64,000 bases of DNA. Source: Pseudomonadales bacterium. Its GTDB lineage: Bacteria; Pseudomonadota; Gammaproteobacteria; Pseudomonadales; Ketobacteraceae. The DNA lies in contig JAGUVW010000021.1 in the NCBI GenBank assembly GCA_020062665.1, forward strand, positions 62,001-126,000. Direction: 5' to 3'. Below are positions 44,285 through 56,614 of the stretch, one piece after another. Position 1 is the stretch's first letter, and each line of letters opens with the position of its first letter. The translations under genes and the position numbers were made by a program. The notes beneath the pieces are model-generated. The model saw nothing but the letters and a program-made list of their open reading frames with translations. It did not search any database and had not been told where the DNA came from.

Positions 44285-46234
44285 TCAGGACAACAGCGGC
44301 TCAAGATTCATGAAACACCGCAGCGCCTCTGGATTCGACAGCGATTCCATATTCTTGACCGCCCTGCCATGCACCACATCACGCACGGCGAGCTCGGTGA
44401 CTTTCCCGGAATGGGTGCGAGGAATATCAGTAACCGCCAAAATTTTCGCCGGTACATGGCGCGGCGTTGCATTGACGCGAATTTCATTTTTTACTCGTCG
44501 CACCAACTCATCCGTCAACTGGAAACCTTCCTTCAACCTGACAAACAACACCACACGCACATCATTGTCCCAATCCTGTCCGATCACAACAGATTCCAGG
44601 ATTTCCTCGATATTTTCCACCTGCCGATAGATTTCCGCGGTTCCGATGCGTACACCACCGGGATTCAGGGTTGCGTCCGAACGGCCGTAGAAAATCATGC
44701 CTTTCTCGGGCGTCAGCTCCACCCAGTCGCTATGACACCAGGCACTATCAAATCTGGCAAAGTACGCATCAAAATAGCGCTTGCGGTCAGGGTCATTCAG
44801 GAATCCCAGCGGCATGCCAGGATGGGGAGACAGACAGACCAACTCACCAGGTTCCCCCATGATCGGTTGTCCATCACCATCGTACACCCGGACATCCATT
44901 CCCAAATGCCGCTTCTGACACTGTCCTGCGTAAACAGGGCCGATCGGATTGCCCCCGACAAAACATCCAATGATGTCGGTTCCACCCGAGATGGAAGAGA
45001 GACAAACATCCTGCTTCCACGAAAGATAGACATATTGAAAGCCTTCGGCGGACAAGGGTGATCCAGTGGACAGAATGGTACGCAGACAAGCAAAGTCATG
45101 GGTTTCGACCGGTCTTACATTCTGTTTCGCACAGGAATCCAGATATTTGGCCGAAGTTCCAAAGTGTGTAACCTTTTCCTCTGCCACAACATCCGCCAGG
45201 TGATACGCATTCGGATAGGTTGGAGAACCTTCATATAGCACCAGCGTCGCATCCGATGCCAGCGCGCTCACCTGCCAGTTCCACATTGCCCAACCAAGGG
45301 TGGTAAAATACAACAGGCGATCCTGCGGCTTTATATCGCACTGCAGCTGATGTTCCTTCAAGTGGTGCAGCAAGGTTCCACCCACTGAATGGACAAAACA
45401 TTTCGGCAAACCGGTTGTACCGGACGAGAACAGGATAAATAGCGGATCACGAAAATTCACCTGCGTGTACTGCAGCGGCTGTTCTACATATTGTGAGCAA
45501 AGCTCAGTGAGCAGAACACCCTTCTGACCCAGAATCCCGATCTTTGGCTTGTCGTTAACAAATGGAATGACGACTATCTTTTTGACGTTGGGAAGGTGTG
45601 AACCCAATTCCGCCACAACGCCCAATGAATCGAAAAACTTGCCATTGTAGGTGTAGCCATCTGCCGTAAACAGAACCTTGGGTTCAATCTGACCAAAGCG
45701 ATCCTTGAGCCCGTTCACGCCGAAATCCGGAGAACAGGAAGACCACACAGCGCCCAGAGACGCCGTTGCGAGCATGGCTACCACAGCTTCTGGAATATTG
45801 GGCAGATAGCCTGCAACACGATCGCCTTTCTGAACCCCCATATTCCACAGCGCCTGTTGCAGGCGTGAAACCTGGTCGCACAGTGTCTGATGCGATATCT
45901 CCTGACGCATGCCACTCTCATGACGAAATATCAGCACCGGATCAGCCTTGGCTCCGCGCAGCAGATTCTCGGAATAATTGAGACTGGCATCGGGAAAAAA
46001 TTCGGCGTTGAAGAGATCCTGACCATTGCGCAGAACCTCCTCCGCAGGATCACCCACCACACCACAGAAATCCCAAACCGCGCGCCAGAAATCCTCGATC
46101 TCATCCACAGACCACTGCCATAGCTGATCATAATCCTGGAATACACCATACTGTTTGCAGATGCTGTCCATAAAGCGCTTGAGCAACGTGCCTTCAATTC
46201 GTTCCGGGGATGGTGACCAAAGTTTCTGTGTCAT
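44285..46234 (-). CDS. aacS: Acetoacetyl-CoA synthetase
   Basis: 649 residues from ATG 46234, the usual length for acetoacetate-CoA ligase. It has LWSPSPERI at the N-terminus, the AMP loop FSSGTTGLPKC, YFTTLGWAMWNW, SGGTDIIGCF and an ACS-like end with HSGKVTELAVRD. The enzyme turns free acetoacetate into acetoacetyl-CoA at the cost of ATP, feeding thiolase. In this island it may capture acetoacetate or a related 3-oxoacid released from the substrate. A related 3-oxoacid:CoA ligase role is possible. It lies downstream of the GntR gene on the same strand (62-base gap) and may be co-regulated. Confidence 0.92.
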   Translation of the reverse strand: MTQKLWSPSPERIEGTLLKRFMDSICKQYGVFQDYDQLWQWSVDEIEDFWRAVWDFCGVVGDPAEEVLRNGQDLFNAEFFPDASLNYSENLLRGAKADPVLIFRHESGMRQEISHQTLCDQVSRLQQALWNMGVQKGDRVAGYLPNIPEAVVAMLATASLGAVWSSCSPDFGVNGLKDRFGQIEPKVLFTADGYTYNGKFFDSLGVVAELGSHLPNVKKIVVIPFVNDKPKIGILGQKGVLLTELCSQYVEQPLQYTQVNFRDPLFILFSSGTTGLPKCFVHSVGGTLLHHLKEHQLQCDIKPQDRLLYFTTLGWAMWNWQVSALASDATLVLYEGSPTYPNAYHLADVVAEEKVTHFGTSAKYLDSCAKQNVRPVETHDFACLRTILSTGSPLSAEGFQYVYLSWKQDVCLSSISGGTDIIGCFVGGNPIGPVYAGQCQKRHLGMDVRVYDGDGQPIMGEPGELVCLSPHPGMPLGFLNDPDRKRYFDAYFARFDSAWCHSDWVELTPEKGMIFYGRSDATLNPGGVRIGTAEIYRQVENIEEILESVVIGQDWDNDVRVVLFVRLKEGFQLTDELVRRVKNEIRVNATPRHVPAKILAVTDIPRTHSGKVTELAVRDVVHGRAVKNMESLSNPEALRCFMNLEPLLS

Positions 46235-46296
46235 GACTGAACATCTATGAAAATTGAAAGTTGAAAACCATTCTTTACTTCTCGACCGTTGCAACG

Positions 46297-47109
46297 TCAG
46301 GACTTGAACCGCTGCAATATCATGGAGTGTCGATATCGGGAAGCAGGATGCGTATTGATTGTCACCTGAAGGATTTTTCCACTGGATGCCTTGTAAGTAC
46401 GGCGAATTTCAAGCGCGGCAGAATCTTCCTTGACCTTGAGCTCCGCCGCAAGCGCTTTGGACACCAGCGTGGCTGCGATCTGCTGATGAACCTCAGCAAC
46501 CTTTTCACCAAACATGTCCTCGATCAGCGGAAATATCGGGCCTTCGTGTCGCAGCAAAATCCTGCCTATGGCTGCGAATGCACTATTGATGTAGTACTCC
46601 GACTGGCCCACCGGTTCATCTGCGTTTTGAGTTCTGCGAAAGCCGAGCACCTGTAGCCACTTTTCTCCCACAGGCAATCCAGTTCGCGTCGCCAGCTTGC
46701 TGTCGATGGTCACCATCTTGATGGAATCAATGGCAAAGCGGGTACCGGTGCCAAATGCCAGCAAATCATTGATGGACATCACCTGATGGATATCCGCATC
46801 GCGCGGACGGGGCGGAACAACGATGGTGCCCGCACCACGACGGGACGACACCAAGCCCTCCTCACGCAGAACTCTCAGCGCCTCCCTCACCGTGTAACGG
46901 CTGATGGAAAAGCGCTTGCACAGCTCATCCTCTGTCGGAATCAATGACCCAACGGGATACACACCATTCACAATTTCGGCCTTCAGCTCCAACGCCGCCT
47001 GCATGTATAGCGGACGCTTGGAATCAGCCTCCACCGTCATGATTGTGTGCCCTGCCTGCGCCGGTGCTTTCTTGGGTTTAACCGCCGTTTTGGATCGGTT
47101 CTTTATCAT
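46297..47109 (-). CDS. GntR-family regulator, HutC/UTRA subfamily
   Basis: 270 residues from ATG 47109; a TTG at 47148 is in frame. The winged helix covers about residues 38-100 (ELKAEIVNGVYPVGSLIPTEDELCKRFSISRYTVREALRVLREEGLV), and the rest (about 115-265) is a UTRA ligand domain with LGFRRTQ and EVHQQIAATLVSKALA. HutC-type proteins bind palindromes of the TGTnnnnACA or GTCTAGAC kind and release DNA on binding pathway metabolites. The ATGTCCGGACAT palindrome lies 145 bases upstream in the promoter shared with the divergent Rieske operon. Confidence 0.92.
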   Translation of the reverse strand: MIKNRSKTAVKPKKAPAQAGHTIMTVEADSKRPLYMQAALELKAEIVNGVYPVGSLIPTEDELCKRFSISRYTVREALRVLREEGLVSSRRGAGTIVVPPRPRDADIHQVMSINDLLAFGTGTRFAIDSIKMVTIDSKLATRTGLPVGEKWLQVLGFRRTQNADEPVGQSEYYINSAFAAIGRILLRHEGPIFPLIEDMFGEKVAEVHQQIAATLVSKALAAELKVKEDSAALEIRRTYKASSGKILQVTINTHPASRYRHSMILQRFKS

Positions 47110-47181
47110 GGCCTCGCATTCGACTCCGCTGGTGGACAAAAACGCCAAAAAGCCTGGCGCCTTGTCAGATTACTATATTAA

Positions 47182-47190
47182 TCCGGACAT
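47182..47190. promoter_or_regulatory. GntR operator-like site TCCGGACAT (partial palindrome)
   Basis: It matches one and a half arms of the ATGTCCGGACAT motif and lies 73 bases before the GntR start, close to where its promoter is expected. It may serve for autoregulation together with the full site at 47254. Confidence 0.5.
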
Positions 47191-47253
47191 CTACATCAAT
47201 CATTGAATATTCTAGCACCATATGGCTTCGCAACCTTGATTGTGCCATCATAC

Positions 47254-47265
47254 ATGTCCGGACAT
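47254..47265. promoter_or_regulatory. GntR operator, perfect palindrome ATGTCCGGACAT
   Basis: A 12-base perfect palindrome about 90 bases before the Rieske oxygenase start and 145 before the divergent GntR start. Its form suits a HutC-type GntR dimer. Related copies occur at 53886, 55128 and 55213. Confidence 0.7.
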
Positions 47266-47355
47266 ATTTTTTGAACTACTCAATCAATCATTCAGGCGAA
47301 AGCCGCTGGCACGACAGAGCCACCCTGCACCGCCTAAACGGGATTGGAGAAGACG

Positions 47356-48729
47356 ATGACAAATAAAATAACCGGTATCAAGGAAGTCCTGTCTGAACCG
47401 GTCACCATTCCAGTGGATGCCTATATCTCGCAGGACTATGCCCGGGCTGAGCGCGACCGTCTGTGGCGCAAGGTGTGGCTCCAAGCCGGTCGCGTGGAGG
47501 AAATCCCGGACAACGGCAACTTCATAACGTTTGAGATTCTGGATGACTCCGTCATCATCGTGCGCTCGCAGGAACACATCCGCGCGTATCACAATGTCTG
47601 CCCCCATCGCGGCCGCCGCTTGGTCGACACACCTCCCGGCGCCCGAAATGCCCAGGGTCAACGCAGTCAGTTTTTCTGCGGCTACCATGGCTGGCGGTTC
47701 AGTCTGCAAGGCGAGAACACCCACATTCCACACCAGGAAGACTGGCAGGGTGCGCTCACCAAAGGGTGTACGGATCTGAGTCCCGTCAAGGTTGATACCT
47801 GGGGCGGCTGGATCTGGATCAACCTGAATCCGGATTGCGAACCTCTGCAGGACTACCTCAACCCGGTAACCAGCATGCTGGATCCCTTCGAATTGCAGAA
47901 CATGCGCTTCCGCTGGCGTAAGTGGGGAATCTTCGACTGTAACTGGAAAGTCGCACTGGAAGCCTTTAATGAAACCTATCACGTGCAGACCACACACCCG
48001 GAATTCAACAAATTCGGTTCATTTCGCGGCTGGGCCAGAGCGCACGGGAAACACAGCAATATCGGCTACGAACGCCCCAAGGATATGGATGAAAACCAGT
48101 CGGCGAAACTGCGGATCGGCACCAACGATGACCCAAGAATTTCTACGGCCGAAATGCAAACCTATACCTGGGAAAAAGCCAACACCAACACCACCCAAAC
48201 ACTGGTAAACGCGGCAAAGCGACTAGCCGATGAATTGCCCCCAGGCACGCCCGGCGACCAAGTCCTGAAGCACTGGATAGAGTCCGCACGCCGAGACGAC
48301 GCGACCCGTGGCGTCATCTGGCCTACCGTGGATCCCGCATTGCTGGCACAAAGCGGCACAGCCTGGCAGATCTTTCCCAACTTTCAGATCGGCCACTCTG
48401 TCAACAACGCGCTGTGCTACAGCGCCCGCCCTCATGGCTACGATCCTGACAAATGCATTTTCGAAGCTGCGGTTTTCGAATTGTTTCCGAAGGGAGAGGA
48501 ACCACAAACCCAATGGGAATTTTGTCCGCCAACAGAAGAAGCCTGGTGCTACGTGTTGTCGCAGGATTTTTCCAACATGGCTGCCGTGCAACAAGGAATG
48601 AAATCCATGGGATTTACTGGCACCAAGCCAAATCCCTACATGGAACGAAGCACCGCCAACTTCCATCGCAACCTGGCGCAATATATGGGCACCGGCAATC
48701 CCAGGCCGCTTGCCGACAACAACAACTGA
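47356..48729 (+). CDS. Rieske non-heme iron oxygenase, alpha subunit (second)
   Basis: 457 residues from ATG 47356, with GGAGA five bases upstream; a TTG at 47344 is the alternative. Rieske ligands are Cys82-x-His84 and Cys108-x2-His111, and the iron site is in NETYHVQTTHPE. It belongs to the same broad group as the oxygenase at 10769 but is clearly diverged, so the two probably act on different intermediates. No ferredoxin or reductase gene accompanies it; the ferredoxins at 1-234 and 12153 are candidates. It is the first gene of a GntR-controlled operon with a CoA-transferase, dehydrogenase and hydratase. Confidence 0.93.
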   Translation: MTNKITGIKEVLSEPVTIPVDAYISQDYARAERDRLWRKVWLQAGRVEEIPDNGNFITFEILDDSVIIVRSQEHIRAYHNVCPHRGRRLVDTPPGARNAQGQRSQFFCGYHGWRFSLQGENTHIPHQEDWQGALTKGCTDLSPVKVDTWGGWIWINLNPDCEPLQDYLNPVTSMLDPFELQNMRFRWRKWGIFDCNWKVALEAFNETYHVQTTHPEFNKFGSFRGWARAHGKHSNIGYERPKDMDENQSAKLRIGTNDDPRISTAEMQTYTWEKANTNTTQTLVNAAKRLADELPPGTPGDQVLKHWIESARRDDATRGVIWPTVDPALLAQSGTAWQIFPNFQIGHSVNNALCYSARPHGYDPDKCIFEAAVFELFPKGEEPQTQWEFCPPTEEAWCYVLSQDFSNMAAVQQGMKSMGFTGTKPNPYMERSTANFHRNLAQYMGTGNPRPLADNNN

Positions 48730-48762
48730 CACCACATTCATTCACTTAGCAAGCATGCCACT

Positions 48763-49971
48763 ATGTCTGACAAAAACACTGATCACAGCAAACAAAATGA
48801 AAAAACCAAGCACTCTGGCCCATTATCCGGAGTACGAGTCGTCGACCTGACCGCCATGGTGATGGGGCCCTATTGCACCCAACTATTGGCGGATATGGGC
48901 GCAGACGTTATCAAAATCGAACCGCCCAATGGCGATAGCACACGCTTCATTTCCCCTGGCCCGGTGCCTGGCATGAGTGGCGTCTTCGTCAACGTGAACC
49001 GGGGAAAGCGCAGCATAGTTCTGGATCTGCAATCGAAATCCGATTGCAACGTGCTGCGCGAACTGATCAAGACTGCGGACGTGTTCATCCATTCCATGCG
49101 CGCCAAGGCCATCAACAAGCTTGGCTTCAGCTACATGGATGTTTCAGCCCTGAATCCTTCCATCGTTTATACCAACTGCTATGGCTACAGCCGCCGCGGC
49201 CCGGATGCGGATTTTCCTGCTTACGACGATACCATCCAGGCGGAATGCGGCCTGCCAATCGTGCAACAAATGCTGACCGGCGAAGTCAACTACGTGGGCA
49301 CTATCATGGCGGACAAAATTGCTGGAATGACTGCGCTCTACGCCACTGTCATGGCGCTGTTTCATCGTGAACGCACCGGCGAAGGCCAGGAAGTGGAGAT
49401 TGGCATGTTTGAAGCCATGGCCTCATTCATGCTGGTGGAACACGCCAACGGCATGCTGTTCAATCCGCCACTCGGGCCCGCCAATTATCACCGGGCCGTG
49501 GCACCCAACCGGCGCCCCTATCAAACAAAGAATGGTTATATTTCTGCCCTGGTTTACAACGACAAACAGTGGTCGCTGTTCATGGACGCCGTGCAGCCAC
49601 ACTGGGCCAGCACAGAATTCGCCACACTGGAACAGCGCGCCAAGCGCATCAACACCCTGTATGGCCTGCTGGGGGAAACTTTCAAAGAGCGCACGACGGA
49701 AGAGTGGCTGGATCTGCTCCACACTCTTGGCATTCCTGCCGCCCCGCTACGCACGCCAGACGAGCTTTTTACCAACCCTCATCTGCAGGCAATCAATTTC
49801 TTCGAGACAGTCAAAGCCCCCTATGGCGAGATGCGATATCCCGGCGTTCCAACCTGGTTTTCCCGGACACCGGGAAAAGTCGCCCGCCCCACCCCTCTGG
49901 TTGGCCAGGACACGCAGGAAATATTGGAAGAACTGGGGCTAGCCCAGAAGACAGCAGTCACTTACGGCTAG
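48763..49971 (+). CDS. Class III (CaiB/BaiF) CoA-transferase
   Basis: 402 residues. GVRVVDLTAMVMGPYCTQLLADMGADVIKIE is the family N-terminal block (here given only by landmark; DMGADVIKIE is diagnostic), and Asp184 in MADKIAGMTAL is the catalytic aspartate. A polar 20-residue leader precedes the fold. It transfers CoA to or from a carboxylic acid in the cytoplasm. It lies 33 bases downstream of the Rieske gene and 90 bases before an acyl-CoA dehydrogenase gene, suggesting that the oxygenated acid is activated and then desaturated. Confidence 0.93.
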   Translation: MSDKNTDHSKQNEKTKHSGPLSGVRVVDLTAMVMGPYCTQLLADMGADVIKIEPPNGDSTRFISPGPVPGMSGVFVNVNRGKRSIVLDLQSKSDCNVLRELIKTADVFIHSMRAKAINKLGFSYMDVSALNPSIVYTNCYGYSRRGPDADFPAYDDTIQAECGLPIVQQMLTGEVNYVGTIMADKIAGMTALYATVMALFHRERTGEGQEVEIGMFEAMASFMLVEHANGMLFNPPLGPANYHRAVAPNRRPYQTKNGYISALVYNDKQWSLFMDAVQPHWASTEFATLEQRAKRINTLYGLLGETFKERTTEEWLDLLHTLGIPAAPLRTPDELFTNPHLQAINFFETVKAPYGEMRYPGVPTWFSRTPGKVARPTPLVGQDTQEILEELGLAQKTAVTYG

Positions 49972-50061
49972 AGACAAACAACAGGAAAGGCAGCAAAGTG
50001 ATCTGACACCATATAGATCTGCTGCCCAACGCGCTCATCCCGAAATAAAAAAGGTGAAACC

Positions 50062-51228
50062 GTGAATTTCTCCTTCACTGCAGATCAGCAAAACATACGC
50101 GACTCCGTACTCAGACACTGCTCCCGCTTCACGGATGACTACTGGCTATCACGGGATCGGGATGCCATTTTCCCCCATGATTTTCATCGCTCCATGGCCG
50201 AAGCCGGCTGGTTGGGTGTCGCCATGCCAGAAAAATTCGGCGGTGCTGGCCTTGGCATCACCGAAGCAGCCATCATGATGCAGGCCGTAGCCGAGTCCGG
50301 TGGCGGCATGTCAGCTGCATCCAGCATTCACGGCCCGGTGTTTACCATGAAGCCGGTGGAACTGTTCGGCACCGATGAACAAAAGCAGCGCATGATACCG
50401 CCGGTCATCAATGGAGAAGACCTGATCTGCTTTGCCGTAACAGAGCCCAACACCGGACTGGACACCACCAAACTGAAAACTCGCGCAGAAAAACGCGACG
50501 GCGGCTATCTTGTCAACGGTGAGAAAATCTGGATCTCTGTTGCCAAGGTCGCGAAAAAGGTGATGTTGCTGGCTCGCACGACACCACTGGATGAAGTCAA
50601 ACGCAAAACAGATGGACTCTCGCTGTTTTTTACGGATATAGATCCAGCCAAAATGGAAATTCGTACCATCCACAAGATGGGTCGCCATGCCGTGGATTCC
50701 AATATGCTGTTTATCTCGGATCTATGGATTCCCGAAGAAGATCGCATCGGCAAGGAAGGCGATGGCTTCAAGATCATCCTGCACGGGCTCAATCCGGAGC
50801 GGATACTGCTGGGCGCTGAAGCAATCGGACTTGGCCGCGTTGCATTGAAAAAAGCTGCCCGTTACGCCAATGAACGCATTGTGTTTGACCGGCCCATTGG
50901 CATGAACCAGGGCATACAGCACCCTCTGGCAAAATGCTGGGCTCAGCTTGAAGCTGCCAATCTCATGGTGATGAAAGCGGCCACCCTGTTTGACCAGGGC
51001 CTGGATTGCGGAATCGAAGCCAACGCTGGAAAATACCTGGCGGCCGAAGCAGGCTTCGAAGCCTGTCACACCGCTATGCTGACGCTGGGCGGAATGGGTT
51101 ACGCCCAGGAATATCATGTGGAACGCTACCTGCGGGAGATACTGATCCCGCGCACCGCGCCGGTAAGCCCACACATGATCCTGAATTTTCTGGCCGAAAA
51201 AGCCTTGGGACTCCCCAAGTCCTATTAA
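50062..51228 (+). CDS. Acyl-CoA dehydrogenase (IVD/LCAD-like catalytic position)
   Basis: 388 residues from GTG 50062, behind AAAAGGTGAAAC. The loops FAVTEPNTGLDTTKLKT and VNGEKIWISVAKVAKK are canonical though GSD is replaced by GLD. The helix GLNPERILLGAEAIG carries a glutamate at the position used as the base in isovaleryl- and long-chain acyl-CoA dehydrogenases, in line with the missing YEG glutamate at the C-terminus (IPRTAPVSPHMILNF). It probably works alone as a homotetramer, unlike the heteromeric types at 25907-33984. It lies third in the GntR-controlled operon. Confidence 0.93.
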   Translation: MNFSFTADQQNIRDSVLRHCSRFTDDYWLSRDRDAIFPHDFHRSMAEAGWLGVAMPEKFGGAGLGITEAAIMMQAVAESGGGMSAASSIHGPVFTMKPVELFGTDEQKQRMIPPVINGEDLICFAVTEPNTGLDTTKLKTRAEKRDGGYLVNGEKIWISVAKVAKKVMLLARTTPLDEVKRKTDGLSLFFTDIDPAKMEIRTIHKMGRHAVDSNMLFISDLWIPEEDRIGKEGDGFKIILHGLNPERILLGAEAIGLGRVALKKAARYANERIVFDRPIGMNQGIQHPLAKCWAQLEAANLMVMKAATLFDQGLDCGIEANAGKYLAAEAGFEACHTAMLTLGGMGYAQEYHVERYLREILIPRTAPVSPHMILNFLAEKALGLPKSY

Positions 51229-51255
51229 CTGGGCAACCGCAACGAGGAGGATGTA

Positions 51256-52023
51256 ATGAGCGACGCGGTACTATTCGAAGCACGTGATGACGGAATAGCC
51301 ATCATCACCCTGAATCAACCTGAAACACGAAATGCCCTCAGCCGGGAAATTCGTCAGGGACTATTTGCCGCCTGGGAGCGCTTTGAGCGCGATCCTGCTC
51401 TCCGCATCGCCATCCTGACAGGCGCCGGCGACAAGGCGTTCTGCGCCGGGGGCGATCTGAAGGAAATGGTAGACCGCGGACTGCAAGTGCCACCGCGCGA
51501 CATGTTCCCTGTACCTTATGATTCAGTCGAGCTGTCCAAGCCGACGATTGCTGCCGTGAATGGCGTAGCGTTCGCCGGTGGCTGGATGATTGCACAGGCC
51601 TGCGACCTTTGTGTTGCCAGCACCCATGCAAAATTTGCAGTAACTGAGGTGAAAGTGGGTAGAAGCTCGCCATGGGCAGCGCCTTTGATTCACATGATTC
51701 CCCAGCGCATCATGATGGAAATCCTATTGACAGGAAAACCCATCACCGCTCAGCGCGCTTATGAAATCGGCCTGGTGAATCGACTGACAGAGCCCGAGAC
51801 TCTCATGAAAACGGCGCTGGACCTGGCGGCAGAAATTCTTGATGGCGCGCCGCTGTCTGTAAGAGCAGCACGGGAAACCGTCATGCTGGCTACCGAGATG
51901 GGACGTTCTGCCGCGCTGCAAGCCGCGAGGCACGCATCAGAATATTGCTACAACAGTGAAGATGCCCAGGAAGGCCCCCGGGCGTTTGCCGAAAAGCGAA
52001 AGCCGCTGTGGAAGGGGCGCTGA
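51256..52023 (+). CDS. Enoyl-CoA hydratase/isomerase family protein
   Basis: 255 residues with a GAGGAGG ribosome site. Oxyanion segments are DKAFCAGGDLKEM and NGVAFAGGWMIAQACDL. The catalytic region VKVGRSSPWAAPLIHMIPQ lacks the standard second glutamate, so its reaction may differ from simple hydration. The C-terminal EGPRAFAEKRKPLWKG is the common crotonase ending. It is the last gene of the plus-strand Rieske operon; a hairpin spans its stop codon. Confidence 0.92.
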   Translation: MSDAVLFEARDDGIAIITLNQPETRNALSREIRQGLFAAWERFERDPALRIAILTGAGDKAFCAGGDLKEMVDRGLQVPPRDMFPVPYDSVELSKPTIAAVNGVAFAGGWMIAQACDLCVASTHAKFAVTEVKVGRSSPWAAPLIHMIPQRIMMEILLTGKPITAQRAYEIGLVNRLTEPETLMKTALDLAAEILDGAPLSVRAARETVMLATEMGRSAALQAARHASEYCYNSEDAQEGPRAFAEKRKPLWKGR

Positions 52024-52035
52024 GCCCCTTCCTTT
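52010..52035 (+). terminator. Hairpin spanning the stop codon of the hydratase gene
   Basis: A 9-bp stem (GGAAGGGGC with GCCCCTTCC), with the stop codon TGA as part of the 5-base loop, followed by TTT. It is a short-tailed terminator between convergent genes. Confidence 0.6.
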
Positions 52036-52045
52036 ACCGAAGCCC

Positions 52046-53779
52046 TTATTGTGCTCCTTCAGCATACCAGGTACGGAACTCATCATAGTTCGGCGTATCC
52101 TTGTTTTCATTGCCACCATGATTCGCCACCGGGTCGATGGGCACATGGATAACAGTCGGTTTGCCGCTGGCAAATGCCTCGCTGATCGCAGGTGCAAGCT
52201 CTTCAGGCCTTTCGACATACATGCCAACACAACCAAGACCTTCAGCTATCTTGTCAAAGCGCACGTTCTTGCCCCAGTGAACGCCCGGTTCGGTCGTGTT
52301 GCCATGACCAAATGTGCGCTTGTAAACACCGACCTCAAGGCCCCACTGATTATCGACAGCGACAACCGTGACAATCGGCAGATTGAGACGCGCAGCCGTC
52401 TCCAGCTCGCCAATGTGGAACAGGAATGCGGAGTCGCTGGTCGTGAACAACACAGGCCGCTTGCCGCCATCGGCGATCGACGCACCAATCGCATAGGGAA
52501 GCCCCGTGCCAAGATGGCCAAAATTCTGGTTCCAGATTACATCGTGCGGCTTGCTCTGCAGATACGTCCACGTAAAGATGACCGAGCCACCACCGTCGCG
52601 CACATGAATGCCGTTTTCAGGAAAAGCCTTGGTCGCCTCAGTCACCCAGCGAGCGGTGTGCATCCGACCACTTTCGGTTGTCTTACCTTCAGCTTCCCGG
52701 GCCAAATCGGCGATACGTTTTCTATCAGCCTCAATCCAGCGCGCCAGATCAGCAGAGGGTTCCCGCGGACTGTCTTTCAACGCCGCAGTTAACTGCGGCA
52801 CCACAGTGCGCAAATCGCCTACCAGAGGAACATCGATGGGACGATTCTGACCTATGGCAGTACCATCCAACTCAACGTAGATCCACTTGCGCGAATCCTT
52901 GTTGTTTTCCCAGTGCCGCCAGCGACCATAATGCACCGGCTCGCCCAGCTCCGTGCCAATGGCAATGCACAGATCAGACTGCGATACCGCCTCGTTCGCA
53001 ACCTTCGAAAAACCATAGGGGAATGTGCGATCTTCAAGGCCTGGAATGAATGCGGTGCCACCGGAAGTCTGAATAACGGGACAGGCCAGCACTTCCGCAA
53101 GAGCCTTCACCTGCTCCCCGCCACGGGATGTCTGCACCGCGTGCCCCACCAAGAGAATAGGATTTCTTGCAGCCTTGATCAGTTCAGCGGCCTTGGCAAC
53201 CATGTTTCCGTCGGCACCGGGCTTCACCAAACGGTAAGCATCAGGCGCCACCGGTGGCGGCACATCCAGATCCTGCAAAATTACGTGAGATGGATATTCA
53301 ACATAACAAGGCCCCGGCGTACCGGACTGACATATCCGCAAGGCATGCCGAAAGATTTCGTCAGTCTGGTCGGCATATTCGATGCTGGCGCTGTATTTCA
53401 CCGAATTTTCAAACAGCGGCCCCTGTTTGACAAACTGGATACGACCACGGCGCACGCGCTGCTCGGTAACGCGCGCCCGCTGCCCTCCCAGGAAAATGAT
53501 CGGAGAGTTCTCGACTTTGGCGCACATCATAGCACCAGCAGCATTCGCGATGCCTGGCCCCAACGTGGCGATGCACAGCGCAGGCGTGCCTTTCATGCGT
53601 GCATAGCCTTCTGCCATAAAGCCAACTGCCAATTCATGGTGAGGTGCCACAACATTCCAGCCCCGCTTTTCGGCGGCAACAAACATATGTACAAAATTTG
53701 GATCGGGGATGCCAAAGATTGTATTGATACCCTCTGCTTCAAAGAGTTGCAGGATGCGTTCGTAAACTTTTACCGGCAT
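52046..53779 (-). CDS. ThDP-dependent enzyme (acetolactate synthase/2-hydroxyacyl-CoA lyase-like)
   Basis: 577 residues from ATG 53779; a longer opening to 53896 runs across the operator. The ThDP glutamate is Glu49 (HHELAVGFMAEGYAR). The pyrophosphate/Mg site deviates from the standard: instead of GDG...NN it reads SDS (448-450) and DNQW (476-479). Three-domain order (PYR, central, PP) is normal. It could be a lyase or decarboxylase acting on a 2-hydroxyacyl-CoA or 2-oxoacid. It points toward the Rieske operon, with the TGTCCGGACA palindrome just upstream of its start region, so it is likely part of the GntR regulon. Confidence 0.85.
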   Translation of the reverse strand: MPVKVYERILQLFEAEGINTIFGIPDPNFVHMFVAAEKRGWNVVAPHHELAVGFMAEGYARMKGTPALCIATLGPGIANAAGAMMCAKVENSPIIFLGGQRARVTEQRVRRGRIQFVKQGPLFENSVKYSASIEYADQTDEIFRHALRICQSGTPGPCYVEYPSHVILQDLDVPPPVAPDAYRLVKPGADGNMVAKAAELIKAARNPILLVGHAVQTSRGGEQVKALAEVLACPVIQTSGGTAFIPGLEDRTFPYGFSKVANEAVSQSDLCIAIGTELGEPVHYGRWRHWENNKDSRKWIYVELDGTAIGQNRPIDVPLVGDLRTVVPQLTAALKDSPREPSADLARWIEADRKRIADLAREAEGKTTESGRMHTARWVTEATKAFPENGIHVRDGGGSVIFTWTYLQSKPHDVIWNQNFGHLGTGLPYAIGASIADGGKRPVLFTTSDSAFLFHIGELETAARLNLPIVTVVAVDNQWGLEVGVYKRTFGHGNTTEPGVHWGKNVRFDKIAEGLGCVGMYVERPEELAPAISEAFASGKPTVIHVPIDPVANHGGNENKDTPNYDEFRTWYAEGAQ

Positions 53780-53885
53780 GTTCGTAGAGCCTCGTTCTGG
53801 AATTATCGGTCGCTGTCTGCTGGAATATCTTGCAAACAAGCTTACCGTTGCCGACGCCCCTGTGCAACAGAAAGAATCATTTATT

Positions 53886-53895
53886 TGTCCGGACA
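53886..53895. promoter_or_regulatory. GntR operator-like palindrome TGTCCGGACA upstream of the ThDP gene
   Basis: A perfect 10-base palindrome about 107 bases before ATG 53779, identical in core to the 47254 site. A weaker relative, TTTTCCGTATAT, lies at 53915-53926. Confidence 0.65.
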
Positions 53896-54024
53896 TTTAA
53901 CTGCCAAATCACTTTTTTCCGTATATTTCAGCACATATGTACAACAAATCTAGACACATATATCAGGACACCAAGTGAACACACATGATCAATACAGTCG
54001 CGAACCGCTCGTCAGGACAACCCC

Positions 54025-54051
54025 AAAAAAAAAGCCCGACATAAGTCGGGC
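54025..54051 (-). terminator. Rho-independent terminator after the SDR gene
   Basis: On the minus strand, a 7-bp stem (GCCCGAC with GTCGGGC), 4-base loop and nine T residues. It ends the 54085-54996 SDR transcript before the ThDP promoter. Confidence 0.9.
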
Positions 54052-54084
54052 AAACTTCTGGTAGTGAGGCGTAAACCGATCGGC

Positions 54085-54996
54085 CTAACTCTTGGAAGCC
54101 ATCGAAAAACTGTAACGAAGGTGATCTACATGACCAGAGGGCACAGGAGAAAAAATAACGGGCTTATCAGCAGCGCGGATTGCATCCATCTGCTCAGCCA
54201 CCTGCTCCAACGTCCAACTTGAACGGTGCACGCCCCGAGTCTCAGCAGCAAAAGCACGCGCAATTCGACCTGCAATGGAAATCAACATTTCACCGGTTAT
54301 TGAGCAGGATTCATGCGCCATCCAGGCTACGGCCGGCGCCACCAGCTCGGGATCCATAGGGGGATATTTGCTGGTATCCAACCCCTCCGCCATCCGAGTG
54401 ACAGCACCAGGAAGAATGACATTACTCTTGATACCGAACTCTTCACCCTCAATAGCAGCGACATTGGACAACCCAACAAGACCTGCCTTGGCAGCACTGT
54501 AGTTGACAACCCCTCGATTCCCATACAACCCATTAATTGAACCGGTCAGGACGATACGACCATAACGGGCTTCACACATATGAGGAAAAGCTGCACGAAC
54601 AACATGAAAACCGCCCCGCAAGTGCACATCAAGAACACTCTCAAAGTCCTGGTAGGACATTTCGTGCAACAGCGCACGACGAACGATCCCTGCATTGTGA
54701 ACAAGAATATCCACTCGACCATAGCGATTCAGTGCAGTATCGATGACCGCCTGCCCGCCCTCTGGTGTTGCAATGGAATCCGTATTGGCAACAGCTTCAC
54801 CCCCAGAGGCCCGAATCTCGTCCACAACCTGCTGCGCCGGGGCAACATCGCTACCATCACCCGCCATACTCACGCCAGGGTCATTAACAACAACGCTGGC
54901 GCCCCTCGACGCAAGCAATCTTGCATAAGCAGCTCCCAACCCCCTGCCAGCCCCCGTGATGACTGCCACACGCTTATCGAATCTCAATTCTGTCAT
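54085..54996 (-). CDS. SDR, MFE-2/HSD17B4-like 3-hydroxyacyl-CoA dehydrogenase candidate
   Basis: 303 residues. It has TGAGRGLG, then VNDPG, which is the NAD-binding turn of multifunctional enzyme type 2 dehydrogenases, NAGIV, Ser in TGSINGLYG and YSAAK. A C-terminal extension (about 250-303, with WTLEQVAEQMDAIR) is also seen in MFE-2-like bacterial SDRs. It probably oxidises a 3-hydroxyacyl-CoA. It is transcribed alone, ending in a strong terminator. Its divergent promoter shares two GntR-like sites with the CoA-transferase gene at 55370. Confidence 0.9.
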   Translation of the reverse strand: MTELRFDKRVAVITGAGRGLGAAYARLLASRGASVVVNDPGVSMAGDGSDVAPAQQVVDEIRASGGEAVANTDSIATPEGGQAVIDTALNRYGRVDILVHNAGIVRRALLHEMSYQDFESVLDVHLRGGFHVVRAAFPHMCEARYGRIVLTGSINGLYGNRGVVNYSAAKAGLVGLSNVAAIEGEEFGIKSNVILPGAVTRMAEGLDTSKYPPMDPELVAPAVAWMAHESCSITGEMLISIAGRIARAFAAETRGVHRSSWTLEQVAEQMDAIRAADKPVIFSPVPSGHVDHLRYSFSMASKS

Positions 54997-55369
54997 TTGA
55001 TTAGCTCTGTTTAACCTTGGCGCTGCCTTTCAATAACCGGCAAAACATCACCGATCACGCTCAGCAAGCAATAGATAACGAATCACTGGTTTTGAGTATA
55101 CACAGAAAAAGCAGCGCACAAAATCAAATGTCCGTATATATGAATGGATGAATGTAATTTTATTTTGCCTTTAAATGGCATTTATGCGCAAAAAACCTTC
55201 AAAAAAGACAAAAAGTCCGTACATTTAAAGACATGAATGAAAATCATGGAGCCGCCACCCGCAATACTGCCACCCCCCACAATAATTGACTATTAATCAT
55301 TTTTATGGGTGAATTGATACCCAGACAACAAAAGAAACTGAAGCCCTTATCTGGGCACCTTGGCGCCGA
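54997..55369. promoter_or_regulatory. Divergent intergenic region with two GntR-like sites
   Basis: The 373 bases between the SDR and CoA-transferase genes are AT-rich and hold no gene that I can recognise. Two motifs related to ATGTCCGGACAT are present: ATGTCCGTATAT at 55128-55139 and AAGTCCGTACAT at 55213-55224, 85 bases centre to centre. Confidence 0.5.
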
Positions 55370-56614
55370 ATGACCACCTCAGGATCCTCCCTCGACTCCC
55401 TGCCACTCGCGACAAGCGCCAACCTGGCGCTCGAAAGGTTCGCTCACCTGTCGGGAATCAAAGGGAAATCGTTTACAGGTGCCGAATTGCTGTATGAGCG
55501 CGCAGCAATGCTCGGCTATGCATCCAGGGCAGAATTCTCTGCCGGCGGCAGCTGTCATTTGATCCGATGCCGCGATGCCGTACTAGCGGTCAATCTGCCA
55601 CGGGATTCCGACTGGGAACTGATACCAGCCTGGCTGGGCCCGTGGCTGGATGACGCAAACATCGCTCACGGAAACTGGTCTGCTCTGGCTTACCATTGCC
55701 AACGCATTGCCGCCTGCAACCTGCTGGGACAGGCCCATTGCCTGGGGCTTGCCGTTGCCTTGGCTAGCGACCTCCCTCCACCACCTTCACACCCAGCCAA
55801 TCACCAACAATTTCGCCTGCAACACAAAACCACCACAACCCTCCTCAGAGACGCACCCGTTATTGTGGATCTATCCTCCCTCTGGGCTGGCCCACTGTGC
55901 AGTCATCTACTCCATCAAGCGGGCTGCCGCGTAATCAAGGTTGAAGGCCTGAATCGCCTCGACGGGGCGCGCACAGGATTTCCGGGTTGCTACCAGCTAC
56001 TGAACCAGGGCAAGGAATCCGTGGCTCTGGATTTTCGATCCGATGCAGACATTCAGCAGCTGAAAAAATTGATTGCCTACGCCGACATCATCATCGAAGC
56101 CTCTCGCCCCAGGGCGCTTCGCAACATGGGAATATATGCGGAACAGTGGGTTCAGTCTCAACCAGGACGAGTCTGGCTAAGCATTACCGGCTATGGTCGC
56201 GACAGTGTCAATGGCGAACGCATTGGGTTTGGTGATGACGCTGGGGCAGCTGCAGGGCTAAGCCACATCATGTACGAAGCAACAGGGAAATATCAGTTTG
56301 TTGGCGATGCAATTGCCGACCCCCTGACCGGCATGCACGCTGCGCTGCTTGCGTGGCAAAGCCTGATGGCAGGAGGCAACGAACTTATATCCATTTCACT
56401 GCGCGATACCGTTTCCTGGTGCCTGCATCAGGAACTGAACACATCTCGCAGGAACGTACTGGAATCCTGTCGGCGGTGGCAGCAACTTGGTAGCGGAATC
56501 AGTCGGCTGTTTCCGTCGGGTTTACGCACGCCATCTGCAGCTTGCGCCACACCAGGCCAGCACAACGAGACAATCTTCAAAGAGCTGGATTCAGTCGCAG
56601 GGGCCTTTCACTAG
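55370..56614 (+). CDS. CoA-transferase family III protein with rearranged domain order
   Basis: 414 residues. The CaiB-like N-terminal block starts only at residue 163 (VIVDLSSLWAGPLCSHLL, GCRVIKVEG), and the catalytic aspartate is Asp317 in ADPLTGMHAAL. The first 150 residues (with GGSCHLIRCRDAVLAVNLPRD) resemble the region that normally lies C-terminal in CaiB proteins. I believe this layout is an established, little-studied family rather than a truncation. Function: CoA transfer or CoA-ester racemisation, substrate unknown. Its 3' end overlaps the convergent TetR gene by 24 bases. Confidence 0.8.
   Translation: MTTSGSSLDSLPLATSANLALERFAHLSGIKGKSFTGAELLYERAAMLGYASRAEFSAGGSCHLIRCRDAVLAVNLPRDSDWELIPAWLGPWLDDANIAHGNWSALAYHCQRIAACNLLGQAHCLGLAVALASDLPPPPSHPANHQQFRLQHKTTTTLLRDAPVIVDLSSLWAGPLCSHLLHQAGCRVIKVEGLNRLDGARTGFPGCYQLLNQGKESVALDFRSDADIQQLKKLIAYADIIIEASRPRALRNMGIYAEQWVQSQPGRVWLSITGYGRDSVNGERIGFGDDAGAAAGLSHIMYEATGKYQFVGDAIADPLTGMHAALLAWQSLMAGGNELISISLRDTVSWCLHQELNTSRRNVLESCRRWQQLGSGISRLFPSGLRTPSAACATPGQHNETIFKELDSVAGAFH

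Follow-up and report, generated by a model that had tools for sequence, protein, structure and literature searches.

The window analysed here is a stretch of 64,000 nucleotides from a Pseudomonadales bacterium of the family Ketobacteraceae (GenBank assembly GCA_020062665.1, contig JAGUVW010000021.1, positions 62,001 to 126,000 of the forward strand). It carries a gene for a GntR/UTRA regulator (gntR), a divergent operon headed by a Rieske oxygenase gene, and genes for a thiamine diphosphate (ThDP) enzyme, a short-chain dehydrogenase/reductase (SDR) and a second CoA-transferase, CaiB2. The promoter regions hold the palindrome ATGTCCGGACAT in perfect or degenerate form (Table 1). An initial annotation had named five such sites and joined the Rieske operon, ThDP enzyme, SDR and CoA-transferase into one GntR/UTRA regulon. 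All five sites are present, the one placed at 47182 being the core of the site at 47179–47190. That account did not include the pairing of the operators, their helical phase or a weak site at 53960 upstream of the ThDP gene. With these added, the regulator is quite probably a HutC-type GntR/UTRA protein that would act as an autoregulated, local repressor with phased, cooperatively bound and possibly looped operator pairs.

The regulator shows the domain layout of the HutC subfamily, with an N-terminal GntR winged helix-turn-helix (HTH; residues 47–110; PF00392, 64.5 bits against a cut-off of 27) and a C-terminal, chorismate-lyase-like UTRA domain (residues 142–273; PF07702, 50.7 bits against 23.8). 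It stays below the cut-offs of the equivalogs for named HutC members (HutC, TreR, PhnF and Rv0792c-type; HutC model 90.7 versus 220 bits) and of all 25 NCBIfam models shown. Since orthologs align from residue 11–42 onwards, the true start probably lies inside the listed open reading frame (ORF), for example at M14 or M37.

The palindrome ATGTCCGGACAT occurs exactly once in the 5,779,219-base genome, adjoining the GntR/UTRA gene. With a ranking matrix built solely from sites of other genomes, the four best positions of the window were 47254, 53885, 55213 and 55128 (21.1, 20.5, 13.3 and 13.1); the next best reached 8.3, and 47179 ranked seventh with 7.6. Ten Markov-simulated windows gave 0–3 matches of at least 12.5 each, 10 in total. 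The genome's only two matches to the strict pattern WTGTMCGKACAW lie inside the cluster, and the looser pattern WTRTMHGGACAW recurs at nine places outside it, all within mechanically called ORFs of at least 100 amino acids. In the genome-wide motif search suggested by the initial annotation, matches with up to two mismatches to the palindrome show no overall excess (98 versus 99 for the reversed control), which makes the regulon look local, but four of the 98 fall, all of them intergenic, within the 8.9 kb cluster, where the genome density of the 98 would give 0.15 (a post hoc comparison). Nine of ten further matches among the 98, with one or two mismatches, lie inside mechanical ORFs, the exception being C6:140765, and no second site lies closer than about 100 bp to any of the ten. 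At up to three mismatches the window holds 22 matches, fewer than the 28.8 expected from shuffles, so that the 47179 site is at chance level by itself. Its credibility as a predicted operator comes solely from the relatives, in which the corresponding position mostly bears a strong site.

Orthologs of gntR (at least 50% identity) were found in 10 of 390 genomes sampled from the order, with four more carrying a relative at 32–35%; the class and phylum samples yielded one each (1/369 and 1/398), the window's own genome both times. Rieske orthologs (at least 72%) likewise occur in 10 of the 390. Both genes are present in nine genomes, G052 (75% complete) having gntR alone and G173 the Rieske gene alone (G000 denotes the window's own genome, other G numbers sampled genomes of the order). 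The best matrix sites were then chosen in 23 promoter regions, ignoring spacing. The Rieske promoter sites are kept in 10 of 10 genomes, which span three families and include cases where gntR lies elsewhere. The SDR/CaiB2 promoter sites are kept in five of six genomes of the order, the sixth, G194, showing weak remnants only, and the separate ThDP promoter sites in all four regions examined, from the same order. The motif is thus carried by orthologous promoters, in favour of the regulon as initially proposed, and motif-less ones, on which that proposal was to fall, are not what these counts returned. A best site of at least 12 bits accompanied by a second of at least 6 was present in 21 of the 23 regions versus 0 of 806 control stretches, none of which held even one 12-bit site; the controls were 300 bp stretches from 12 of the loci and the matrix includes many cluster sites, which makes this a contrast rather than an independent test.

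In the nine site-supplying genomes, 23 of the 26 genome-wide matches to the strict pattern fall in the cluster; extra matches in G098 (C2, C17) and G194 (C66) have no partner with up to three mismatches within about 110 bp. The other two carriers have one match, before a second Rieske gene (G186), and none (G052), and 27 matches were counted in 17 genomes without gntR. In G194, gntR and the Rieske operon lie about 36 kb apart on one contig, and the operator pair is still 76 bp. A further pair of 77 bp is found in G186 between a unit of FAS1-dehydratase-like and SDR genes and the second Rieske gene. The conservation in ten genomes, the loci separated from gntR and a Mycobacterium branderi gntR situated behind GTCCGGAC sites together support well that the predicted sites belong to the GntR protein.

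At the Rieske promoter the two operators are 74–77 bp apart in all ten genomes (75, 74, 75, 77, 77, 77, 74, 74, 76 and 76 bp; mean 75.5, standard deviation (SD) 1.3). The spacer between them has a median pairwise identity of 0.54 (0.42–0.69), versus 0.50 for one pair shuffled 100 times; hence its length has been conserved but little of its sequence. Between operator and Rieske gene the distance has an SD of 21 bp (7 of the 10 genomes measured). Chosen without guidance, the pairs at the ThDP promoter measure 124 (G000), 77, 75 and 65 bp, preceding a tandem ThDP gene pair in G126 and G214, and those at the SDR/CaiB2 promoter 85, 99 (G234), 86, 96, 76 and 88 bp (G194, very weak). Together with 77 bp at the second Rieske promoter of G186 and 87 bp before the M. 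branderi gntR, the non-Rieske spacings are mostly 65, 75–77, 85–88 or 96 bp, i.e. whole helical turns. Relative to a phase reference of the Rieske mean plus n × 10.5 bp, the twelve unguided non-Rieske pairs deviate by 1.25 bp on average, whereas a uniform spread of spacings over 50–130 bp would give 2.56 (p = 0.0008). Replacement guided by orthologs (the 53960 site in the window, 9961 in L028) changes 124 into 75 and 99 into 85 bp. Over eight lineages the guided mean deviation is 0.79 bp (p = 0.0001, both p values taking lineages as independent), and the guided set responds most strongly at a period of 10.5 bp (resultant 0.87), out of 17 tried over the range 7–15 bp. The 53960 site, which the matrix does not rank among the top three of its region, is presumed to be a partner from its position only, which coincides with that of ATATCAGGACAT in G234 and ATATCTGGACAT in G126.

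Pairs also stand where there is no divergent gene. At the ThDP genes a pair is present although the upstream neighbour, the SDR gene, runs in the same direction (the gaps contain small mechanical ORFs), and in G173 the gene upstream of the Rieske pair, encoding a wax ester synthase, is codirectional with the Rieske gene. The partner site appears to be retained in its own right. As in loop-forming repressors, the two operators lie on the same helical face, with two of the twelve unguided pairs excepted.

With respect to DNA recognition, the window's regulator shares with the HutC subfamily (NagR/YvoA, DasR, HutC) both the combination of GntR winged HTH and UTRA and a palindrome, here at conserved promoters, with GT and AC four bases apart. 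The operator core GTMCGKAC equals the subfamily consensus GTMTAKAC with CG replacing TA. The consensus centre is not seen in the strong sites, which have CG, and HTH position 39, which is linked to the central operator bases, is Tyr or His; a TA centre is typical, not strict, G/C centres being reported with Asp at this position (PMC4494728). Compared to NagR, the window type has CG instead of TA, Tyr or His instead of Met at position 39, and Asp instead of Arg at position 28. The NagR site GTGGTCTAGACCAC (PMC4333415) differs from the M. branderi half TGGTCCGG in the centre only. In NagR, Arg38 reads G-5 and Arg48 reads G-4 (PMC4333415). An HTH alignment of 22 rows, one repeating the window's gene and with the NagR row taken from a printed alignment, shows R84, the counterpart of Arg48 that reads the G of GT, in 22 of 22 rows (GntR relatives at 31–35%, L037–L040, were used in this alignment only). 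D74 occupies the position of Arg38, which reads a G where the window's site has T; orthologs have Asp, Glu, Gly or His here, and their sites mostly T, the M. branderi protein having His and a G in one half of each site. At the Met49 position, G000 and its closer relatives have Tyr, whereas G192 and G665 have His. The sites of these last two belong to the GTACGGAC type, which is not confined to them but occurs in Tyr genomes too, such as G098. The residues at this position fit a CG centre, as a correlation over few sequences.

The most distant case is a Mycobacterium branderi plasmid (NZ_AP022607.1), which encodes a GntR protein 56% identical to that of the window and has two GTCCGGAC sites, TGGTCCGGACAA and ATGTCCGGACCA, before the annotated gntR start at L102:9097, an uncertain start in that the tblastn match extends to 9001. 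Its Rieske cluster lies about 77 kb from gntR, with TTGTCCGGACAA 140 bp upstream of the ThDP gene. The recurrence of regulator, sites, Rieske and ThDP genes on this megaplasmid (L102, L103) points to transfer between phyla. The surroundings of gntR in relatives at 38–42% identity (Novosphingobium L018, Sphingobium L109, Variovorax L110) yielded no good sites arranged as a phased pair. A copy of TTGTCCGGACAA in Sphingobium sp. RAC03 (L104:3290) was set aside, being embedded in a long inverted repeat and lacking a partner.

Related arrangements are known outside the HutC subfamily. AraR of Bacillus subtilis also has a GntR-type DNA-binding domain and two in-phase operators, which it binds cooperatively with formation of a small loop (PMC4218819). 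Atu1419 of Agrobacterium fabrum, of the VanR/FadR type, likewise has two palindromes at a divergent promoter, one of them between the −10 and −35 boxes of the regulator's own gene, and its loop has been seen by electron microscopy; it differs by an all-helical FCD effector domain, by palindromes 190 bp apart and by being a tetramer (PMC7797058). A Pfam search of the window's regulator returned UTRA only, with neither a LacI-type nor an FCD effector domain. The effector domain of AraR is of the LacI type, in contrast to UTRA. With UTRA only, the regulator would thus work like AraR or Atu1419 without being one of them. Closer to it by family, Suvorova et al. (2015) describe double sites at near-constant distance in 32 of 60 HutC divergons and read them as cooperative, the sections of that paper considered here being free of helical phase analysis (PMC4494728). 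Direct repeats two or three turns apart are described for MocR, and higher oligomers for HutC of P. aeruginosa and P. fluorescens on their promoters. A literature search covering few subscription papers turned up neither a UTRA regulator whose distant operators are helically phased nor a looping HutC/UTRA repressor, and no title among the literature matches listed for the core string named a GntR operator. In-phase operators and loops in the GntR superfamily and double HutC sites are thus known; the helically phased UTRA pair, with its putative looping, appears to be new.

The site, its tie to the GntR protein, the pairing and the conserved phase come directly from the comparison of genomes. 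From these we infer that the GntR/UTRA protein would bind the sites and repress both its own gene and a catabolic cluster for CoA-thioester and Rieske chemistry. A GntR dimer would bind the palindrome WTGTMCGKACAW and its degenerate forms. Three promoter regions would each offer two operators whose centres are separated by an approximately whole number of helical turns, which in relatives is 6, 7, 8 or 9, a spacing that would bring two dimers to one face of the double helix and allow cooperative binding. Most likely, this cooperativity would take the form of a short loop bridging the operators and closing the promoter or promoters. In the gntR/Rieske region, each operator could also block a divergent promoter directly. 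Induction would follow when a catabolite bound by the UTRA domain releases the repressor. A more far-reaching formulation, in which a UTRA-type GntR repressor uses a very short loop, keeps its phase as length changes in whole turns (6 to 9) and has a CG-centred specificity that accompanies the regulator as far as an actinobacterial plasmid, is given somewhat less than an even chance.

The strongest competing explanation, albeit an unlikely one, is that GntR binds the sites with each operator acting alone, the spacing reflecting the packing of divergent promoters. Boxes resembling −35 and −10 and directed towards gntR flank the gntR-proximal operator with 9–11 of 12 consensus positions in six of eight genomes in which gntR is the neighbour (these are consensus matches, not mapped starts; random best scores average 7.3, reaching at least 9 in 9.6% and at least 10 in 1.1%). 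In the window, O1 lies inside a consensus-like gntR-ward promoter, TTGATG-N16-TATAGT, and independent double sites are described for 28 of 60 HutC divergons (PMC4494728). Boxes over the Rieske-proximal operator merely reach 8–9 of 12, in five genomes. Against packing, pairs are still found where no divergent gene is present, at the ThDP promoters and in G173, and the SDR spacings differ by whole turns (76, 85–86 and 96 bp). With a neighbour other than gntR, as in G173 and G194, the boxes drop to 8 and 6, yet the operator still scores 18.9 and 18.1 bits; G192 and G665 blunt this contrast, their boxes scoring 7 and 7, i.e. background, even with gntR adjacent.

It is considerably less probable that the operators are real and belong to another regulator, gntR being a mere neighbour. 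The strong G173 pair in the absence of a close GntR would suit such a scenario, as would the TetR gene adjoining CaiB2. However, gntR (at least 50% identity) is present in 9 of 10 Rieske-ortholog genomes and Rieske in 9 of 10 gntR genomes within the samples of 390, the sites precede gntR in other families and on the actinobacterial plasmid with different neighbours, and G098 and G126 retain the sites with no TetR gene found next to CaiB2. Chance palindromes picked post hoc, a notion favoured by the flat genome-wide count and the shortfall of three-mismatch matches, are refuted to a very high degree of certainty by the conserved orthologous promoters and the empty control stretches.

Several observations weigh against the phased-repressor model preferred here. 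G173 keeps a strong pair (76 bp; L089:17109-17334), its closest GntR protein reaching only E 3e-13; in this draft, called 99% complete, a close GntR may have been lost, lie in a gap or have been replaced. The SDR pair of G194 is nearly gone (5.8 and 1.5 bits), and the ThDP-side pair of G126 lies upstream of the first ThDP match at a distance of about 580–660 bp, an interval that contains small ORFs. The M. branderi ThDP promoter has a single site and was excluded from the spacing count. No site with up to two mismatches lies within 400 bp of the start of the Rieske genes on six plasmids: the M. branderi one, four of Sphingobium and one of Rhodococcus. The four Sphingobium plasmids are not among the gntR-bearing records, the single such Sphingobium record being another plasmid. 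As to the phase, two of the twelve unguided non-Rieske pairs (G000 ThDP, 124 bp; G234 SDR, 99 bp) are off, the unguided period peak is broad (0.65–0.73 over 9.5–12, with 0.73 at 11.5 and 0.66 at 10.5), and the lineages assumed independent are few and related. Moreover, loops of 65–96 bp are stiff for bare DNA, and a site for a bending protein was not established.

For an uncharacterised group of GntR/UTRA regulators, the proposed model would predict an operator, the genes under its control and a geometry that can be tested. Between relatives the operator spacing changes by whole turns, which is nature's counterpart of experiments that insert half or full helical turns and suggests how cooperative or looping repressors might be recognised purely by their sequence. 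The CG-centred pair of regulator and operator adds a case to the HutC-type recognition code (HTH positions 28 and 39).

Table 1. Genes and predicted operators of the cluster (window coordinates; mismatches relative to ATGTCCGGACAT)
Feature	Position	Strand	Basis or remark
Acetoacetate-CoA ligase gene, directly behind gntR	44285..46294	-	TIGR01217, 854 bits vs cut-off 521
GntR/UTRA regulator gene (gntR)	46297..47148	-	Pfam GntR 7e-18, UTRA 2e-13
Predicted operator O1, gntR-proximal, degenerate, TAATCCGGACAT	47179..47190		3 mismatches
Predicted operator O2, Rieske-proximal, perfect, ATGTCCGGACAT	47254..47265		exact; 75 bp from O1
Rieske oxygenase alpha subunit gene, first of operon	47344..48729	+	Pfam Rieske, Ring_hydroxyl_A
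CoA-transferase family III (CaiB-type)	48763..49971	+	Pfam CoA_transf_3 2e-110
Acyl-CoA dehydrogenase	50062..51228	+	Pfam search
Enoyl-CoA hydratase/isomerase family protein	51256..52023	+	Pfam search
ThDP enzyme gene (listed ORF)	52046..53896	-	TPP_enzyme N/M/C
Predicted operator upstream of ThDP gene, TTGTCCGGACAT	53885..53896		1 mismatch
Weak presumed partner site, ThDP side, ATATCAGGACAC	53960..53971		75 bp from 53885 site
SDR oxidoreductase gene	54085..54996	-	adh_short
Predicted operator between SDR and CaiB2 genes, ATGTCCGTATAT	55128..55139		2 mismatches
Predicted operator between SDR and CaiB2 genes, AAGTCCGTACAT	55213..55224		2 mismatches; 85 bp from 55128
CaiB2, second CoA-transferase family III protein	55370..56614	+	Pfam CoA_transf_3, partial, 165-357

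The predicted regulon supported by these data comprises gntR with the acetoacetate-CoA ligase gene, the operon for Rieske oxygenase, CaiB, acyl-CoA dehydrogenase and enoyl-CoA hydratase, and the ThDP, SDR and CaiB2 genes. Judged by position, the ligase gene is probably co-transcribed with gntR, and the order of the two is kept in G234, G098, G126 and G214. Acetoacetate as the end product of the pathway is a guess from the presence of this ligase. The Rieske gene probably starts at the ATG at 47356 instead of the listed position, and its product matches solved Rieske proteins in the first half only. Because orthologs align only from about residue 32–44, the true ThDP start probably lies near 53779, which would place the operator about 106 bp upstream; the longest ThDP ORF (its 53779–53896 part) begins inside the operator. 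The best matches of the ThDP enzyme are acetolactate synthases (191 bits), followed by 2-hydroxyacyl-CoA lyases and oxalyl-CoA decarboxylases (169 bits). For the first 164 residues of CaiB2, no Pfam family matched at the limit used.

Further genes were observed at related loci. In G194, a divergent gene for an FAD-dependent reductase of the ferredoxin-reductase type (Pyr_redox_2, Reductase_C; L090:15366-16601) adjoins the moved Rieske operon and is a possible electron donor. The second Rieske oxygenase of G186 (L093:278-5675) is only 28% similar and is followed by CMD-family and AMP-ligase genes, possibly a further branch of the regulon. A second ThDP gene, not found at the corresponding place in the window or in L028, stands in tandem with the first (54–55% identical) in three relatives, at L029:7405-9111, L030:7970-9688 and L032:2220-3920. 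The window's own genome carries a second Rieske paralog (56% identical; G000:C6:28789-30129) on the same contig, before the window.

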